From: Bernardetiaceae bacterium
GTDB lineage: Bacteria > Bacteroidota > Bacteroidia > Cytophagales > Thermoflexibacteraceae
Length of the DNA stretch: 64,000 bases
Direction of reading: 5' to 3'
NCBI GenBank assembly: GCA_025056255.1
Contig: JANWVT010000001.1
Location: 1 to 64,000, forward strand
Shown here: positions 186 to 56,148 of the stretch, piece after piece
How positions within the stretch are numbered: the stretch's first letter is position 1
Layout of the letters: the number at the start of each line of letters is the position of its first letter
Position numbers and translations under genes: made by a program
The notes under the pieces: generated by a model
The model's input: the letters and a program-made list of their open reading frames with translations, nothing else
Database searches by the model: none
What the model was told of the DNA's origin: nothing

Positions 186-1646
186 ATGATGAAACAATTA
201 GCTGTTACCTGTTTGTTTTGCTTGTGTTGCGGTTACTTAGTTGCACAAGACCGCAAAGCAATGAATGCCAAAGACCAAGAAAAGCTAGCCATTTGGCAAC
301 AGTTAGACAAGCAATTTCCTGCCTACGCACAAGTTGCCCGCGACATCTGGGCATTTGCAGAATTAGGCTATCAGGAGCAAAAGAGTAGCTCCTTATTGCA
401 AAAAAAATTAAGTGAAGCAGGCTTTAAGATAGAAAGCGGCGTGGCGGGCTTGCCCACTGCATTTGTAGCTACTTACGGCTCAGGCAGTCCTGTCATTGGC
501 ATTTTGGCAGAATTCGACGCCTTGCCGGGGCTTTCTCAGGATACTGTTCCTTATCGCAAGCCATTAGTAGCAGGAGGAAGTGGACACGGTTGTGGACACA
601 ATTTATTTGGAACAGCATCGGTTGCAGCCGCCATTGCTTTAAAAGAGCATCTGCAGCAAACTGGACTAAGAGGTACCCTCAAACTATTTGGTACACCAGC
701 CGAAGAAGGAGGCGCTGGCAAAGTGTTTATGGCGCGCGAAGGATATTTCACAGGGGTGGACGTAGTATTGCATTGGCATCCGGCAGCGGTCAACGCTGCC
801 AATGCGGAAAGTTGTTTGGCAATGGTAAGTGGCACGTTTCGCTTTTATGGGCAAAGCGCACATGCCGCAGGAAGCCCTGAGCGCGGACGTTCTGCCTTAG
901 ACGGACTGGAAGCCATGAACTACATGGTCAACCTCATGAGAGAGCACATGCCACAAGAAGCACGCATTCACTACGTTATTAAAAATGGCGGTGTGGCTGC
1001 TAATGTAGTGCCCGACTATGCCGAGGCAGAGTACGTTGTGCGCCTACCCGACCACAACGCTACAATGGAACTTTGGGAGCGCGTAATAAAAGCCGCAGAA
1101 GGAGCAGCCATTGGAACAGGTACAACAGTCAAATATGAAATCAATGCTGCTCATATGGGTTTGCTTCCCAACGAAACACTGGCAGCTATTATGCACAGCA
1201 ATTTGAGCAAAGTAGGCGGCGTGAAGTACGATGCAGCCGAGCTTTCTTTTGCAGAACAACTGCGCACCACAATGGGCAAAAACCTCCCCCCTCTTAAACA
1301 AGCCGAAGAGATTCAACCCTTCAAACAATCGTTTTTCCCTGCCTCTACCGATGTAGGCGATATCAGCTGGTTAGTACCTACCACGGGACTTTCCACCGCC
1401 ACTTGGGTACCGGGCACAGCAGCCCACACTTGGCAAGCAACCGCTACCGATGGCATGAGCATCGGCATGAAAGGCATGCTCAACGCCGCCAAAACCATAG
1501 CCGCTACCGGCTTAGATTTACTCAGCAATCCCAGCCTGATAGAAAAAGCTAAAACCGAGATGCAAAAACGACGCGGCGCCAATTTTGAATACAAAGCTAT
1601 GATTGGCAATATCAAGCCTCCACTGGACTATCGCAAAGGATTGTAA
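186..1646 (+). CDS. M20 family metallopeptidase / amidohydrolase (AbgB-like)
   Basis: 486-aa ORF with M20 motifs (GHGCGHNLFG, PAEEGGAGK, EFDALPG) and N-terminal signal peptide. Confidence 0.9.
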   Translation: MMKQLAVTCLFCLCCGYLVAQDRKAMNAKDQEKLAIWQQLDKQFPAYAQVARDIWAFAELGYQEQKSSSLLQKKLSEAGFKIESGVAGLPTAFVATYGSGSPVIGILAEFDALPGLSQDTVPYRKPLVAGGSGHGCGHNLFGTASVAAAIALKEHLQQTGLRGTLKLFGTPAEEGGAGKVFMAREGYFTGVDVVLHWHPAAVNAANAESCLAMVSGTFRFYGQSAHAAGSPERGRSALDGLEAMNYMVNLMREHMPQEARIHYVIKNGGVAANVVPDYAEAEYVVRLPDHNATMELWERVIKAAEGAAIGTGTTVKYEINAAHMGLLPNETLAAIMHSNLSKVGGVKYDAAELSFAEQLRTTMGKNLPPLKQAEEIQPFKQSFFPASTDVGDISWLVPTTGLSTATWVPGTAAHTWQATATDGMSIGMKGMLNAAKTIAATGLDLLSNPSLIEKAKTEMQKRRGANFEYKAMIGNIKPPLDYRKGL

Positions 1647-18624: not shown

Positions 18625-18681
18625 CCAATAGCAGATAAGCTGTGCAATGAAGCACTTGAAAAGCACCATTTCCAAGATAGC

Positions 18682-18748
18682 ATTGCACGCCGCCATTGCA
18701 CGTTGCTGTTGTTTGTGTATGTACGAACAACCTGCCAATATAGCGGCA
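18682..18748 (-). repeat. Interspersed intergenic element copy C: two 13-bp units, box, small stem-loop
   Basis: attgcacgccgcc/attgcacgttgct/gttgtttgtgtat in 13-bp phase; tgcc...ggca at 18733-18748. Confidence 0.55.
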
Positions 18749-18911
18749 AGTATTTTTTTGCAAATGGCAAAATACAAGCGCATTTTTTGCTTTCAATCTC
18801 CTTTGTTTTGTGTGAGAAGCTACACAGCAAAGATTGACTTATCAAGCGAAGTCTGAACAATTCGCGGTATTGACCCTAAATGTAACCCAGTAGCTATCCA
18901 CCCAATCAGTT

Positions 18912-21900
18912 TTAGTGGGACTCTCTCTCTAAGTAGTGGCGCGTTACACCCATTGAAAGATAAATTTGGTCTTGTACTTTCACGCGAATGTTCTGCTCAA
19001 TAAGGCGCCAGTTTCTTGCATTGGGATAGGTGCGGTTAGATAAAAATACGTATACTAAGTTATATTGTGGGTCTACCCATACACCTACGCCAGTAAATCC
19101 ATTATGTCCGTAGGTAGCAGGCGAACAATAAGCTGAGGTGGGTCCTCCGCTTCCTCTAATGGGCTTATCCCAACCTAAGCCCCTGCGATTGTGGGGCACC
19201 GTTCGCTTCTCGGTAAAGAAAGGCACTGTTTGGGCTTGATTAAAAAACTTTTTGCCTCCATAGTAGCCATTTTGTAAATTCATTTGCATTAAAATAGCCA
19301 CATCGTTGGCATTGCTGAAAACCCCTGCATGTCCAGCTACTCCTCCTTGCAAGGCAGCGTCGGGGTCGTGTACTACACCTTGAATGCGTTTTTTACGAAA
19401 GTACTTGTCTTCCTCTGTGGGCGCAATGCGCGATTTTTCTATTCGATTGAGTGGCAAGTAGCCCATAGTAGACAATCCTAATGGTCGATAAAAATATTGT
19501 TCTACAAACTGGTCTAAACACTGCCCGGTTTGCTGTTCTACAATTTGTTTAAGCAGGTAAAATGGTACATCGGAATAAAAATAGCCGTACAAGCCGTTGG
19601 AGGCTTTGTTGCTGCGCAGAGGGCTTTCTCTGAGCCACTTCCAAACCTCTGCATGAATTTTAGCAGAGGCATACAGGTTCTCGTCTACGGGGATAGTGTG
19701 TTGCTCTGTCATTTGGCTGGAATAGTACTCTGGCTTGTACTTTCCTTTTTCCATTGTATGCCACCAATGCGGAACGCGCTGAATAAGCCCTGCCTGATGC
19801 AATAAGATGTCGCGCAAAATTAGGTCGGCTTTATTAGTTCCTTGAAGCTCTGGCAAGTAATCAGCTACTTTTTTGTTGATATCTAATAGCCCGCGGTCGT
19901 GCAAATACATCACGGCTTGCATAGTGGCTGTTACTTTGGTCAACGAGGCTAAGTCATAAACAGTCTCATCATCAACCAAAGCAGCTGAGGGCTCATAGGT
20001 TAAGTGCCCATAGTTGCGGTTGAATACCACATTGCCGTTGCGGGCTACTAGTATTTGACAGCCGGGCATAGCATGGCTAGCAATAGCCTGATTGACAATG
20101 CTATCTATCTTATCCAGTATATAGCTGCTCATGTGCTCTTGTTCTGGCAGAAAGGTGTATTTCAGGCGGTTGAGCGAAAATATCGAGCACCCTGCCCCTG
20201 CTTGAATATTGGGAGAAACGCTTACCGGCAGTCTGGCATTGGTAGTAACCGCCCCAAAGAGTACTTGGGGCACTACAATTTGTACATCGCTGTTGTTTTC
20301 GTATGCACATACTAAATAAGAGGCATCATCGAAAAATTTCAGACTGTACGGATTGCCGAATACGACCGGTATCACTTTCGTATACTCAGATAACTTTTTA
20401 ATGAAGTTGCGGCTTGCCTGCGAAATGCCAAAATCATTTTCTATGCGATTGGTAGTGCTTACGCCAAGTAAACCAACAATTACTACTTTTTTATTCTTCA
20501 ACTTAGGAAGTAAAGCATCGTAAGTAGCGTCGCCAGCAGTTTTATCGGCAATTTGGTAATGTTCAAACGGAGCGTACTTACCCAAAATGCGTTGGAAGTC
20601 ATTGTTTTGCTTGGCACCAATTACTACTGAGGCAAAAGAAAGTTCTTCTAAGTTTTTGAATGGTATCAGGCTGTCGGCATTGCGTACTACGGTAACGGCT
20701 TGCTCATACAGTTTCATGCGCAGCGCTTTTGCCTGAGGCGTGTTTAAGTCTTCTATCAGGTTTGGGATGGGAATAGGTTTGTATTGGTGCAAGCCAGCGA
20801 AATATTTTGCCATGAGTATTTTTTTAACACGACGCTCTATTTCTGCCATGCTAATCTCGCCGGCAGCAATTGCCTCTTTTATTTTGGCAACCCCCTTGGG
20901 AACATCAAGAGGGAAAAGGAGGCAGTCGTTACCGGCTTTTAACGCTAACAAATCTGTTTCTCCGGGCGAATAGTTTGCCGAAACTCCTTTCATATTCAGC
21001 GCATCGGTAAAAATCAACCCCTGAAAGCCGAGTTGATACCTGAGCAAGTCAGTTACAACGGCTTGTGAGAGTGTAGTAGGCTTTTTAGGGTCGGCATCGT
21101 AGGCTGGCAAGTTAATGTGCGCTACCATGATGCTCATCACGCTGTCCTGAATCAGCTTGCGGAAGGGATATAGTTCAACTTCTTCTATTCGTCGGCGGTC
21201 GTGTTTAATAATAGGCAAGGCATAATGAGAGTCGGTATCGGTATCTCCGTGTCCGGGGAAATGCTTGGCGTTGGCAATAATGCCATTTTGCTGCATACCA
21301 CGCATGTAGCTAAGTGCCTTTTCAGCTACTTTTTCTTTGTTTTCGCCAAAGGAGCGAATTCCGATAACTGGATTGGCGGGATTTACATTTACATCGGCTA
21401 CGGGTGCAAAGTTGATGTGGATACCCATTCTTTTCAACTGACGGGCTATTTCCGCTCCCATGTCATAGATTAGTTTGTTGTCGCCAATAGCTCCAAGTGT
21501 CATGGCTTTGGGGAAGCTGATTGTGCTGTCTAAGCGCATGCCCAGTCCCCATTCGCCATCTATGGAAATGAGCAGGGGAATTTTGGCAAGTCGTTGGTAC
21601 CGGTTGGTTAGCAGCGCTTGCCTTACTGGACCTCCTTGAAAAAAAATCAGTCCGCCAATATGATATTGGCTTACAAGTCGGTCAATTTCTCTGTAATGTG
21701 ACTCGTCGCGGTTGGAGTAGGCTGCTACCATAAACAATTGCCCAATTTTCTGCTCGTCGGTCATGGTTCGCAAAACGCTGTCTGCCCATTCGTGCTGTTG
21801 CCTGAGTTTTTCCAGATAAGCAGGGTCGAGCTGCCTTACCTCCCCTTTCGTTGATGGAGCAGGCACATCAATGCTTTTTGCACTTAGTAAAAACAACAAT

Positions 21901-33161: not shown

Positions 33162-33417
33162 ACCTGAGCACACGCGTATGTTCATGTAGCTCAGGTGAAT
33201 TGGTGTTGGCTTATTTGTCTCAACATGAAAGTAGCGCAGTAAAGAGATTTTTGGGGGTTACCGAATAATATCCTGCAATCTCATCGGCAAACATGATGGA
33301 TAAAGCCTCAATCATTGTTTCAACAGGATGGCAGTATTGAGAGGCTGAAAAACAACCTTGCTAACAGTAGCACTTGTCCTTACTGGCAACAGGGTTGCCT
33401 GTGAGGACACAAACAAC
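33162..33417 (+). repeat. Interspersed intergenic element copy D: two stem-loops and a GAGGACACAAACAAC box
   Basis: acctgagc...gctcaggt (33162-33195); tgtccttactggcaac-agg-gttgcctgtgaggaca (33375-33409) abutting the box at 33403-33417. Confidence 0.5.
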
Positions 33418-33506
33418 AATGAGTTTGCCTTTATAAATGCGCATTTGGCAAAATCAACCCTATCAATACCTAAACAGCCACTAAGCTGAATCTATGAAAT
33501 TGCCAA

Positions 33507-34908: not shown

Positions 34909-35110
34909 AACTAAACAATCAACTAATAACAAAGTTAAGCAGTTGTGTATATGCGATTAGCAGTTTTACAATAAATAATTGTAGCTGCTTTGCTTGCGGT
35001 TGCTCATAGTTCGCGTGTTATTGGGCGGCTTTGAAAACTAAATTTATGCATGATTAACTCTGCAAACAGTATATAATGCCACTGATGCCATTAAAAAGTG
35101 GCAAGATTGA

Positions 35111-35210
35111 GTTTGATGTTGCCGTTGCACGCTGCCGTTGCACGATGCCGTTGCACGCTGCCGTTGCACGTTGCCGTTGTTTATGTCTTTTTGAACCTCC
35201 CAGCTTGTCG
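35111..35210 (-). repeat. Interspersed intergenic element copy B: five 13-bp units plus box
   Basis: gtttgatgttgcc/gttgcacgctgcc/gttgcacgatgcc/gttgcacgctgcc/gttgcacgttgcc then gttgtttatgtct in the same phase. Confidence 0.75.
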
Positions 35211-48970: not shown

Positions 48971-50062
48971 ATGAAAAACTATCATTTTCGTGTTCTACTG
49001 TTTGGGTTGAGCAGCTTGTTGTTTTACACGGCTTGTGAACATCAAGAGCATCACCACGATTTAGGTACCTATCAGGCTACACAGCCCGTTAGAAAAGACA
49101 CTACCACACTCAAAGAGTATGTTTGCCAAATTCGCTCTCATCAGCATATTGAACTGCGAGCATTGGAACGGGGCTATCTGCAAGACATTTATGTAGATGA
49201 AGGCAAACGAGTGAAAAAAGGGCAGCTCATGTTTCGCATTATGCCGTTGGTCTATCAGGCAGAGGTGCAAAAAGCTGAGGCTGAAGCTAAGTTTGTAGAG
49301 GTAGAATATTTGAACACCAAGCAGTTGGCTGAGCAGAATATTGTTTCGCAAAGCGAGTTAGCATTAGCCAAAGCTAAGTTAGAAAAAGCTAAGGCTGAAT
49401 TGGCATTAGCCAAAACCCACTTGAATTTTACTGAAATCCGCGCACCTTTCGACGGTATCATGGGGCGTTTCAACGTGCGCTTAGGCAGCTTAGTAGAAGA
49501 AGGCGAACTGCTCACTACACTTTCCGACAACAGCAAAGTGTGGGTATATTTCAACGTACCGGAAGCTGAATACTTAGACTTTTTTGGCGCCAACCAAAAG
49601 AATAATCTGCCCAAAGTGCAGTTGCAGATGGCTAACCGTCAGCTGTTTGACCAGTTAGGTACTATCGAAACCATTGAGGCAGATTTCAACAACGAAACAG
49701 GCAATATTGCTTTTCGCGCCACTTTCGCTAACCCGCAAGGACTGCTCCGGCATGGCGAAACGGGCAACATCTTGATGCCAGTAGCCCTTAAAAACGTGCT
49801 GCTCATTCCGCAAAAAGCCACCTTTGAGATTCTGGGCAAAAAGTATGTGTTCGTGATTGGAGCAAATAATATGGTAACCATGCGCGAGATTACAGTTTCA
49901 GGGGAAATGCCTCATTTGTTTGTAGTAGCTAATGGACTGCAAGACAACGAAAAAATCTTAATAGAAGGATTGCGGAAAGTAAAAAATGGCGACGTAGTTA
50001 AATATACCCTTGTGCCCATGTCTCGCATCCTTGCTGAGTTAAACCGCTTACATGCTGAATAA
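48971..50062 (+). CDS. RND efflux periplasmic adaptor (membrane fusion protein)
   Basis: LRALERGYLQDIYVDEGKRVKKGQLMFRI; coiled-coil; IRAPFDGIMGRFNVRLGSLVEEG. Confidence 0.95.
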   Translation: MKNYHFRVLLFGLSSLLFYTACEHQEHHHDLGTYQATQPVRKDTTTLKEYVCQIRSHQHIELRALERGYLQDIYVDEGKRVKKGQLMFRIMPLVYQAEVQKAEAEAKFVEVEYLNTKQLAEQNIVSQSELALAKAKLEKAKAELALAKTHLNFTEIRAPFDGIMGRFNVRLGSLVEEGELLTTLSDNSKVWVYFNVPEAEYLDFFGANQKNNLPKVQLQMANRQLFDQLGTIETIEADFNNETGNIAFRATFANPQGLLRHGETGNILMPVALKNVLLIPQKATFEILGKKYVFVIGANNMVTMREITVSGEMPHLFVVANGLQDNEKILIEGLRKVKNGDVVKYTLVPMSRILAELNRLHAE

Positions 50063-53000: not shown

Positions 53001-53332
53001 TTTTAATGACCTCCTTCGCTTTTATTGCCGGACTCATTCCGTTAGTACGCGCAACTGGGGCAGGTGCAGTGGGCAACCACACCATTGGGGCTTCGGCATT
53101 GGGCGGCATGTTATTGGGGACCGTATTCGGAGTCATCATTGTACCGGGGTTGTACTACATATTCGGCAAATTGGCAGAAGGAAAAAAACTCATCCGCGAT
53201 GAAGAACTAAATCCGCTTACCGAAGACATCGCAGAACACTATCCTAATGGAGAAAACAACATAAGTAACAAAAAACTGGCAAGTCTGATAAAAAAATTGC
53301 TAAAAAAAGATGAAATGCAAGATAAAGCATAG
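50084..53332 (+). CDS. RND efflux pump permease (AcrB/HAE1 family)
   Basis: MFSKFIHRPVLAISISIAIVFLGLLAMNRLPVSQFPEIAPP; GIVVDDAIVVVEAV. Confidence 0.96.
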   Translation: MFSKFIHRPVLAISISIAIVFLGLLAMNRLPVSQFPEIAPPRVSVFIDYPGASADVLVQSTLIPLERAINGVQGMQYIISDATSAGEATIQVVFEPGTDPNAAVVNVKTRVDQVMNNLPPLVQREGVIITPIQPSMLMYVNLYSTDKNADEKFLFNYAYVNILPELQRIKGMGRAQILGSRQFAMRIWLKPDRMRAYNISTEEVMKALEEQSVIGRPGRLGQSSGKTPQSLEYVLVYKGRFNKPEEYEDIIVRANPDGEILKLKDIADAELGSEFVNIYSNKDGYPSASIVLKQNVGSNAQEVIAQVKEKLAELKRDFPPGMNYEISYDVSKFVDASIEQVLHTLLEAFILVALVVFVFLGDWRSTLIPIIAVPVSLVGAFVFMQFLGLTINLITLFALVLAIGIVVDDAIVVVEAVHEKMESEHLSPYQAVKKVLGEISGAVIAITLVMVSVFVPIAFMPGPVGVFYRQFSITMASSIVLSGIVALTLTPVLSAMILKNHHNKPRRHNPVSWFLNGFNRTFEQVTAKYTGLLRHIVHRRLVTLGILLAFGWGIYAVNKILPAGFIPNEDQGMIYAIIQTPPGSTLERTNEVSRQLQKIAEEIEGIQSVTSLAGYEILTEGRGSNAGTCLINLKDWDKRKQTVKDIIEQLEEKTKNLGAVIEFFEPPAVPGYGSSDGFSLRMIDKNPTVDYQEFDKINTQFMEALKKRKELTGLFTFYAANYPQYELIIDNQAAMQKGVSIGKAMENLDILIGSTYEQGFTRFNNFFKVYTQAAPEYRRMPSDLLNLFIKNESGEMVPYSSFMKLKKTQGPNEITRFNLYMSSAIRGVPAPGYTSGDAIRAIQEVAEQTLPQGYDIAWEGLSYDEARRGNEAVYILAVVLIFVYLVLAAQYESFIIPLAVLFSLPPGIFGSFLLLKWMGLANDIYAQIGLIMLIGLLGKNAVLIVEFAVQRHHQGLSIMEAAIEGAKMRFRPILMTSFAFIAGLIPLVRATGAGAVGNHTIGASALGGMLLGTVFGVIIVPGLYYIFGKLAEGKKLIRDEELNPLTEDIAEHYPNGENNISNKKLASLIKKLLKKDEMQDKA

Positions 53333-54743
53333 CCTCATTGCTGTAGGAGTAGTTTTACTGGGGCAGTCGTGTGTGCCTACATTACCTACTCAGCGCAATG
53401 CCCAAGTAGCATTGCCTACTCAGTTTCAACCTACATCTGTGGCTGACACCCTTACCCTTGCCCAACTGCAGTGGAAAGAGTACTTCAACGATGGCAACTT
53501 AGCAGCGCTAATTGAAGAGGCACTGCAAAACAACCAAGAGTTGAATATTGTCATGCAGGAAATTGAAATCAGCCGCAATGAAATCACAGCGCGCAAGGGA
53601 GAATACCTGCCGTTTGTGGGGCTGCGTGCTGGTGCTGCCGTAGATAAAGTTGGTAAATATACCCGCATGGGTGCAGTGGAAGAGGGGCTGGAAATTATGC
53701 CCGAAAAACATTTTCCCACCCCTCTCTCCGACTTTATAGCAAACGCTGCTGCTTCTTGGGAGTTGGACGTATGGCGAAAACTACGCAATGCCAAAAAAGT
53801 AGCAGCATTAAAATACTTAGCTACCACAGAAGGAAAAAACTTTTTGGTCACCAATTTGGTAGCCGAAATTGCCTACTCCTACTACGAGCTACTGGCGTTA
53901 GACAATTTGTTAGAAATTATTCAGCAAAACATCGAAATCCAAAATAACGCTTACCAAATTGTCAAAAAGGAGAAAGAAAGTGCCAAAGCCAGTCAGTTGG
54001 CTGTTAATCGGTTTGAAGCACAGTTGCTCAACACCCAAAACCTGCAATATGCCGTTATGCAACGTATCACAGAAGCAGAAAACCGCATCAATTTTTTATT
54101 GGGACGCCCTCCGCAGCCTATTGCTCGCCATTCTCAACAGTTTTTTGATATTTCACTAGGCAGTATCCAAGCCGGCATTCCTTCGCAACTACTTGTCAAT
54201 CGCCCCGACATTCGGCAGGCAGAACTGGAGTTGCAAGCGGCGCGTTTGAATGTACAAGTAGCCAAAGCCAACTTTTACCCTGCTTTCCGCATTACCGCCG
54301 GTATAGGTTTTCAAGCATTCCAACCTGCTTATTTGCTCGGTCCAGAGTCGGTAATATACTCGCTGGCAGGCGATGCAGTAGCGCCACTGATTAATCGGAA
54401 TGCTATTAAGGCAGCTTATTTTAATGCCAATGCCCAGCAGATTCAGGCATTGTATCGCTATGGACAAACGGTGCTCAATGGCTATGTGGAGGTACTCAAC
54501 CAGTTGGCAAAAGCCAATAACTACAGCAAGAGCTATCAAACTAAAAAACGCGAAGTAGATATTCTCATTCAATCTGTGGACATTGCTAACAGTCTGTACC
54601 GCTCTGCACGAGCAGATTACATGGAAGTATTACTGACTCAGCGCGAAGCGCTTAACGAAAAATTAGAACTTGTGGAAGTAAAGGCAAAGTTATTGGAAAG
54701 CAAGGTAGGGCTCTACCGCGCTCTGGGCGGCGGTTGGCGATAA
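53310..54743 (+). CDS. Outer membrane efflux lipoprotein (TolC/OprM/NodT family)
   Basis: Lipobox GQSCVPT; INFLLGRPPQPI, LLVNRPDIRQAELELQAARLNVQVAKANFYPAF. Confidence 0.95.
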   Translation: MKCKIKHSLIAVGVVLLGQSCVPTLPTQRNAQVALPTQFQPTSVADTLTLAQLQWKEYFNDGNLAALIEEALQNNQELNIVMQEIEISRNEITARKGEYLPFVGLRAGAAVDKVGKYTRMGAVEEGLEIMPEKHFPTPLSDFIANAAASWELDVWRKLRNAKKVAALKYLATTEGKNFLVTNLVAEIAYSYYELLALDNLLEIIQQNIEIQNNAYQIVKKEKESAKASQLAVNRFEAQLLNTQNLQYAVMQRITEAENRINFLLGRPPQPIARHSQQFFDISLGSIQAGIPSQLLVNRPDIRQAELELQAARLNVQVAKANFYPAFRITAGIGFQAFQPAYLLGPESVIYSLAGDAVAPLINRNAIKAAYFNANAQQIQALYRYGQTVLNGYVEVLNQLAKANNYSKSYQTKKREVDILIQSVDIANSLYRSARADYMEVLLTQREALNEKLELVEVKAKLLESKVGLYRALGGGWR

Positions 54744-54773: not shown

Positions 54774-54911
54774 AACTCTGTTTGTAGCACGTGAGAACAT
54801 GCGCTACAAACAGAGTTATGAGTTGTGTGTAGAGACACGAACAACAGTGGTGTGCAACGGCGACGTGCAACGGCAGCGTGCAACGGCAGCGTGCAACGGC
54901 AGCGTGTACAC
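54774..54911 (+). repeat. Interspersed intergenic element copy A: 15-bp stem-loop, AGAGACACGAACAAC box, four 13-bp units
   Basis: aactctgtttgtagc-N14-gctacaaacagagtt; box 54831-54845; units at 54852, 54865, 54878, 54891, the last three identical (gtgcaacggcagc). Confidence 0.8.
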
Positions 54912-54942
54912 TAAATTTTTCAAATGCTCAATGGTGCGTGGG

Positions 54943-56148
54943 TTAAATGACAACTGCCTCTAAGCAACGAGTAATGCGTTGAAAAATATCTTCTATATCA
55001 TTGTCCAATCCAACCGAAATACGCACCAGCCCATCGGTAAGTCCCATTTGGAGGCGTTCTGCTTCGGGTATTTCCGAAGAGGTACTGCTGCCCGGCGAAC
55101 TGAACAAGGTGCGGAAAAAGCCCAAACTCACTGCCAAATAGCCCACTTTTTCCTCTTGCATGGCTTCCATCAGCTCGTAAGCGGCTTGTTTTGTGCCCAT
55201 GTCAATTACCACCATGCCGCCGTAGCCATAGCCCGGGTTCAGCAGGCGGGTAAACAGTTGGTGCTGTGGATGGGTGTGAAGTCCCAGATAAATTGTGCGG
55301 ATACCCATATTGGCGAAAGATTGCGCAAGATAGGATGCGTTGGCACTGTGTTGCTTCATGCGAACGTGCAAGCTGCGCAAATTTTTTAATACACTTGCCG
55401 AACGCAAGCTATCCATCACCGGACCAAGCAACATGCTTGCCCCAAAGTTGACATCGGTTAAACTGCCAATAAAGGCTTTACTTCCGCAAATAGCACCTGC
55501 TACCGTATCACTTGTGCCGTTGATATATTTAGTAAGGCTGTGAATCACAATGTCTGCACCTAACCGAGCCGGAGAAACCAGCATAGGGGCAAAGGTGTTG
55601 TCTACTACCAACTGTAAGCCGTTTGCATGTGCTATTTGAGCCAACGTAGGAATATCGGCAACTTCCAAAAGCGGATTGCTGACCGTTTCGCAATAAATCA
55701 CTTTGGTGCGCGGGTTGATGGCTTGCCGAATTTTATCGGGATTGGTAATGTCTACAAAGCGCGTAATAATGCCAAAACGCGGCAGGAAATTTTTCAACAG
55801 CGCATAGGTACCGCCATAGACCATGCGCCCGCAAATGATTTCATCGCCATGGCTGCAAAGTTGCATGAGTGCTGTGCTAATAGCAGCCATGCCCGAGGCT
55901 GTAACTTGTGCTGCCTCTGTGCCTTCCATGGCTGCCAATGCATCGGAGAGGTAGCGATTCATCGGATTCCAGTGGCGTGAATACAGGTAACAACCTGCCA
56001 ATTCTTGCTCAAACATTTCTTCCATTTTGCTGGCATTGAGGAAAGTATAGGTTGCCGAGTCTTCAATGGAAGGATTCACCCCCCCAAATTCGCCGAAATA
56101 TTGGAGGTCTTGCAGGCGCATAGCAGGGTCTTGGCTTTGCATAGTCAT
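54943..56148 (-). CDS. Trans-sulfuration family PLP enzyme (methionine gamma-lyase-like)
   Basis: YSRHWNPMNRYLSDALAAMEGTEAAQVTASGMAAIS; VIHSLTKYINGTSDTVAGAI; start MTMQSQDPAMR. Confidence 0.92.
   Translation of the reverse strand: MTMQSQDPAMRLQDLQYFGEFGGVNPSIEDSATYTFLNASKMEEMFEQELAGCYLYSRHWNPMNRYLSDALAAMEGTEAAQVTASGMAAISTALMQLCSHGDEIICGRMVYGGTYALLKNFLPRFGIITRFVDITNPDKIRQAINPRTKVIYCETVSNPLLEVADIPTLAQIAHANGLQLVVDNTFAPMLVSPARLGADIVIHSLTKYINGTSDTVAGAICGSKAFIGSLTDVNFGASMLLGPVMDSLRSASVLKNLRSLHVRMKQHSANASYLAQSFANMGIRTIYLGLHTHPQHQLFTRLLNPGYGYGGMVVIDMGTKQAAYELMEAMQEEKVGYLAVSLGFFRTLFSSPGSSTSSEIPEAERLQMGLTDGLVRISVGLDNDIEDIFQRITRCLEAVVI

Follow-up and report, generated by a model that had tools for sequence, protein, structure and literature searches.

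REP-like repeats are known best from Proteobacteria and Cyanobacteria; the boxB unit of the pneumococcal BOX element is about 45 bp long. The REP super-families GTAG and CGTC are defined by an unpaired foot tag (Di Nocera et al. 2013, PMC3733652), with the CGTC repeats lacking a known dedicated transposase, and a preference of REPs for convergent and downstream positions has been reported (PMC3733652); for BOX, enrichment between convergent genes has been reported (PMC3049150). The locus described here lies at 54.8 kb of the window—the first 64000 bp of one contig (G000:C19:1-64000) of a draft genome of 3.39 Mb in 107 contigs. We consider it probable that the locus represents a copy of a dispersed, modular, non-coding REP-like repeat, built from a GGC-footed hairpin, units derived from the hairpin arm and an AT-rich tail, and shaped by spread in trans, decay and slippage.

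Layout of the 54.8 kb locus and its relatives in the window

The element fills the gap between a TolC-like gene (53310-54743, forward strand) and a convergent gene for a trans-sulfuration enzyme (reverse strand, stop codon at 54943); these two names, and that of the HemE-like gene discussed below, were given by eye or taken from the original prediction. Following the forward strand, we see a first hairpin (54774-54817), with arms of 20 nt at 90% complementarity and the centre GTG-AGAA-CAT, that contains the 15-bp inverted repeat AACTCTGTTTGTAGC/GCTACAAACAGAGTT (54774-54788/54803-54817) noticed earlier. The sequence GTAGAGACACGAACAAC lies between this hairpin and the array of units. A second hairpin (54822-54845), the core of the family, is decayed at this locus (GTTGTGTGTA-GAGA-CACGAACAAC); the AGAGACACGAACAAC box, originally taken for a motif in its own right, is indeed present at 54831-54845, where it forms the right arm of this second hairpin. 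The foot and linker (54846-54851) read AGTGGT rather than the family form GGC + GRC, and lead into four 13-bp units (54852-54903), which can be read directly from the sequence just as first described: one GTGCAACGGCGAC (54852-54864) followed by three GTGCAACGGCAGC (54865-54903). The tail (GTGTACACTAAATTTTTCAAATGCTCAATGG...; 54904-54942) adjoins the stop codon of the convergent gene; the conserved tail thus moves the end of the element from 54911 to about 54942. Stems resembling the first hairpin precede the core in some other copies, but the first stem-loop is not the constant part of the family it was proposed to be. In all, the 54.8 kb locus is a decayed, ordinary family member.

The reverse complement of the 13-mer, recognised earlier at 35.1 kb, belongs to a full array of four units (35118-35169, reverse strand) within a second copy (35070-35209, reverse strand) that also comprises a decayed hairpin arm and a tail. 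A third copy, also decayed, had been missed: it occupies 296 bp between convergent genes (18625-18920, reverse strand), with a hairpin running down from 18731, two decayed units from about 18701 down, and then a tail. Allowing one mismatch, the 13-mer occurs seven times in the window against 0.17 expected from shuffles, none of 100 shuffles reaching seven. A related dispersed repeat of about 200 bp (33286-33494, forward strand) includes a variant core hairpin, GTTGCCTGTGAGGACACAAACAAC, and has many copies in the genome at 71-78% identity; the array copy at locus L053 seems to be preceded by sequence related to it. The window also holds two direct copies of a 258-nt stretch (1830-2087 and 2172-2429; 82% identity) and a 21-bp tandem repeat of about three units (49349-49414).

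A dispersed family of hairpins, units and tails

The existence of a dispersed hairpin repeat is well supported. Genome-wide, the two-unit pattern gives 96 matches at up to one mismatch and 119 overlapping matches at up to two (9 and 35, respectively, for the reversed control), arrays with at least two units number 52 or more in the 3.39 Mb, and BLAST with a 199-bp query finds 43 places. A covariance model of the hairpin plus two units returns 121 matches at E≤0.1, and a sequence profile about 108 non-redundant matches in the genome stretches retrieved, both counts including copies used in model building; three of the profile matches fall inside predicted genes. The original inference of a dispersed, structured repeat family is thereby borne out, with copies throughout the genome, conserved flanking modules, a covarying stem and a site that is near-empty in two congeners; neither of the two outcomes named beforehand as refuting it was seen. 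Beyond this group, the array pattern has only two single exact matches, in Pseudomonas and Burkholderia, in a wider genome-contig collection that may omit records close to this genome, and these we take as chance; no similar DNA was found in the plasmids and phages searched.

The core hairpin has the consensus GTTGTTNGTG-NRRA-CACNAACAAC, alternatively spelled GTTGTTCGTG-AAGA-CACGAACAAC-GGC, with GGC forming an unpaired foot. Its stem is conserved through compensatory change: within the set of loci recovered by the family model or pattern, selecting on the right side only gives an exactly complementary left arm in 77 of 92 cases, spanning eight arm types; this one-sided selection gave a clear signal, whereas a first covariation test on a MAFFT alignment was weak. 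The loops are mostly NRRA, and their orientation therefore agrees with that of the foot. Of the distinct hairpins centred on GTG-N4-CAC, some 80-90% carry GGC close to one end (counts with and without the foot being halved, since each palindrome is seen on both strands), and GGC also follows the majority of hairpins from other genera. Elsewhere in the order, families often have the arm GTTGTTGGTG/CACCAACAAC, with GGC after it again in most copies. An exact search with relaxed arms finds the hairpin in 44 of 293 genomes of the order, the reversed-pattern control giving 0 among the matches listed. A stricter pattern that includes GGC is matched within the phylum in 4 of 249 genomes: the present one, two more from the order (few matches, some of their stems imperfect) and one from elsewhere in the class (perfect stems). 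About 187 genomes outside the class gave no match. Hairpins also occur as inverted and tandem pairs and, in the congener G007, in dense clusters.

A full copy in this species has the form hairpin - (GTGCAACGGCRRC)1-6 - AT-rich tail. About 20-30 copies carry the tail (consensus GTGCAAATTGAATTTTTCAAATGCTTAATTGCATC) after their units, irrespective of unit number, many of the single E-values being weak. Several modules can precede the hairpin on its 5' side, and one of these, ACGCAAAAAGCAAGG...CTTTTCAAAGAAAATACTCGCCGCCATGCTGCTGGGTTGT, is common to this genome (L039, L038, L072) and G007 (L083, L086, L087, L100). In one frame this shared module gives FSKKILAAMLLGC, which resembles a lipoprotein signal peptide; in G007 the 5' module is repeated in tandem together with the hairpin.

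Arrays of two, three, four, five and six units number 18, 15, 11, 5 and 3, and single-unit copies exist (e.g. L124) between the same hairpin and tail. The period is 13 in 102 steps and 12 in 12 steps, and the two linker bases of the unit are nearly always purines. Set against the hairpin arm plus foot (GAACAACGGCGGC), the unit (GTGCAACGGCGGC) is identical at 11 of 13 positions; at L102 of G004, a genome of another genus, tandem copies of the right arm GACACGAACAACGGC, one differing by a single change, come directly after the hairpin; and in this genome the period of the first unit can be predicted from the length of the arm linker (Fisher p 0.0009). Taken together, these sequence relationships lead us to conclude that the arrays represent reiterated copies of arm plus foot, for which slippage would be the simplest mechanism of growth. 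In comparisons that take one genome per species, G007 and a second congener, G008, have few arrays or none, and hairpins are abundant in G007; a third congener, G006, has arrays with no recognisable hairpin, which our reading can explain only by supposing that the hairpin has decayed. No hairpins built from the unit itself (GTTGCAC...GTGCAAC) were found in the sequence retrieved.

Proposed spread and decay, and alternative explanations

Most copies lie at the 3' ends of genes. With a gene on both sides of 94 matches, 48 sit between convergent genes (enrichment p 6e-5) and four between divergent genes (depletion p 0.05) when judged against the gene pairs of this one window; the gene calls come from a simple codon-usage script, and single context assignments are therefore approximate. 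At the positions compared, the element is absent from congeners. The one clean comparison of an occupied with a near-empty site is that at 18.6 kb, where the gap between the HemE-like gene and its convergent neighbour measures 296 bp here (18625-18920) and 17 bp in both G006 and G008. The extra stretch holds hairpin, units and tail, and has CCAAT at both ends, a possible 5-bp duplication that is too short to prove; terminal inverted repeats, which together with a target-site duplication would mark a MITE, were not recognised. G006 lacks the element of the 54.8 kb site, and its copy of the enzyme gene (89% protein identity) stands beside another neighbour. The sequence of G006 and G008 contains no array upstream of the 35.4 kb gene. 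At C41:89.6 kb, both congeners carry a gene in place of array and hairpin, so that there is no simple empty site. In G006 this gene, of about 1.1 kb (L243, ~340-1480, reverse strand), looks by eye like a fatty-acid desaturase; it is probably present also in G008 and seems to have been lost or replaced in this genome. The five array loci of G006 have no flanking genes in common with the copies retrieved from this genome.

A search for a mobilising enzyme centred on the Y1 transposase domain Y1_Tnp (PF01797), which is absent from this genome, from G008 and from G007, the copy-richest congener, and present once in G006. Across 62 genomes of the order, the presence of Y1 fails to distinguish genomes with the hairpin from those without it (28 of 31 versus 25 of 31), and none of the 42 Y1 loci examined has a family hairpin within about 1.5 kb. 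As far as tested, an association with RAYT therefore fails and RAYT is not supported as the mobilising partner, while in its other features the family behaves as a REP does. Separately, one Y1 transposase gene (L197, in G116) is flanked on both sides by a different hairpin, GTAGCGAGGGGTTTCATACCCCTCGC, and looks like a canonical GTAG REP-RAYT unit within the same order.

By analogy with what REP and REPIN elements are thought to do, we suggest that the hairpin would have been copied in trans to new intergenic sites by an enzyme that reads the folded strand and foot rather than the arm sequence. Most copies, that at 54.8 kb included, would now be decaying relics, in which the 13-bp array may have grown later by replication slippage at the arm and foot; any present-day effect, be it on the stability of mRNA 3' ends or on convergent read-through, would stem from the hairpin in the 3' region. 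A bolder version, which we put forward as speculation and think rather unlikely, is that GGC-footed hairpins make up a further tagged REP-like super-family of the order, served by an enzyme other than Y1/RAYT, with arm reiteration belonging to the copying mechanism itself in some genera.

The compensatory stem changes and the convergent and downstream preference could also be expected of a functional RNA element, its 3'-region hairpins stabilising, attenuating or terminating and being kept by selection instead of mobility; the arrays in co-directional gaps, mostly sense (14 to 4), point the same way. This bias, however, is gone in the full set (24 to 18), positions are not common to congeners at the sites compared, and the copying of diverse hairpin subfamilies would also yield covariation. 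At the element there is no terminator-like site with the family hairpin, and Rfam 15 returns just miRNA-precursor models, far below cut-off (its sole match in the window is a tRNA elsewhere). Such an RNA element strikes us as improbable. Contrary to the original statement, a 13-bp period does not exclude an open coding repeat: three units make 39 nt, no unit frame contains a stop, and ORF 54799-54963 is open straight across the array. Together with the lipoprotein-like signal in one 5' module, and an open frame in 40 of 52 copies (31 ± 3 with shuffled flanks), this could suggest a family of small coding sequences for short lipoprotein-like or array-encoded peptides, although the phase from hairpin to tail is spread evenly over three frames (6/6/5), units of 12 and 13 bp are mixed, and the spacing of the G007 5' module (about 87-89 bp) does not keep to multiples of three; we give the idea little credence.

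Much the same low probability attaches to the arrays serving a DNA-binding protein (nucleoid, segregation or regulator) as binding sites, the hairpins being incidental: whilst the units do keep a well conserved GTGCAACGGC core at a regular 13-bp spacing, their number varies freely from 1 to 6, and arrays are scarce where, as in G007, hairpins abound. Least credible of all is an assembly artefact or chance low-complexity sequence. It could draw on three tiny contigs from two species (L084, L090 and L091; G007:C38, G000:C82 and G000:C104), consisting almost wholly of near-identical clusters of related repeats, which reflect either shared recent repeats or carry-over of contigs between assemblies and from which we deduce that assemblies break at the repeats; copy numbers, though, are far above those in shuffles and reversed controls, and the majority of copies are found deep within long contigs and between different genes.

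Relationship to described repeat systems

A hairpin family found across an order, bearing a foot tag of its own, with no RAYT partner found and with arms growing into minisatellites, would broaden current ideas on the spread and decay of small hairpin DNA. For strain typing, the arrays offer candidate variable-number markers; the clusters of repeats break assemblies, and comparison of occupied and empty sites makes the question of the mobilising enzyme testable. Literature searches with the consensus strings returned unrelated papers only, and no paper on this hairpin family was found in the open-access texts covered; the GGC foot tag is apparently undescribed.

Among known systems, the subterminal hairpins of IS200/IS605 elements (PMC6006769) resemble the core in being short, with a few unpaired foot bases where a guide would lie; unlike them, our family inhabits a genome without a Y1_Tnp gene, and no IS ends were recognised. 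The resemblance to BOX of Streptococcus pneumoniae (PMC3049150) is one of layout, two distinct end modules enclosing a variable number (1 to 6) of tandem units, and of enrichment between convergent genes. The sequences are unrelated as compared by eye; the unit here is 13 bp as against the much longer boxB and derives, as we read it, from the neighbouring hairpin arm, and neither inverted terminal repeats nor a parent IS could be shown. Closest are the REPs (PMC3733652) and REPIN doublets (PMC3116915). Here, as there, we find a short, high-copy, dispersed and mainly extragenic palindrome with covarying stem subfamilies and a few conserved unpaired foot bases, arranged as singles, pairs and clusters with a preference for convergent and downstream positions, and, as with the CGTC REPs, without a known dedicated transposase. 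Unlike the GTAG and CGTC super-families, these hairpins bear the tag GGC at the 3' foot (read on the other strand, GCC at the 5' side), both in this genus and in further families of the order; and unlike REPs, the hairpin has no RAYT beside it in 42 Y1 loci and, in this genus, is extended by an array of units and a tail.
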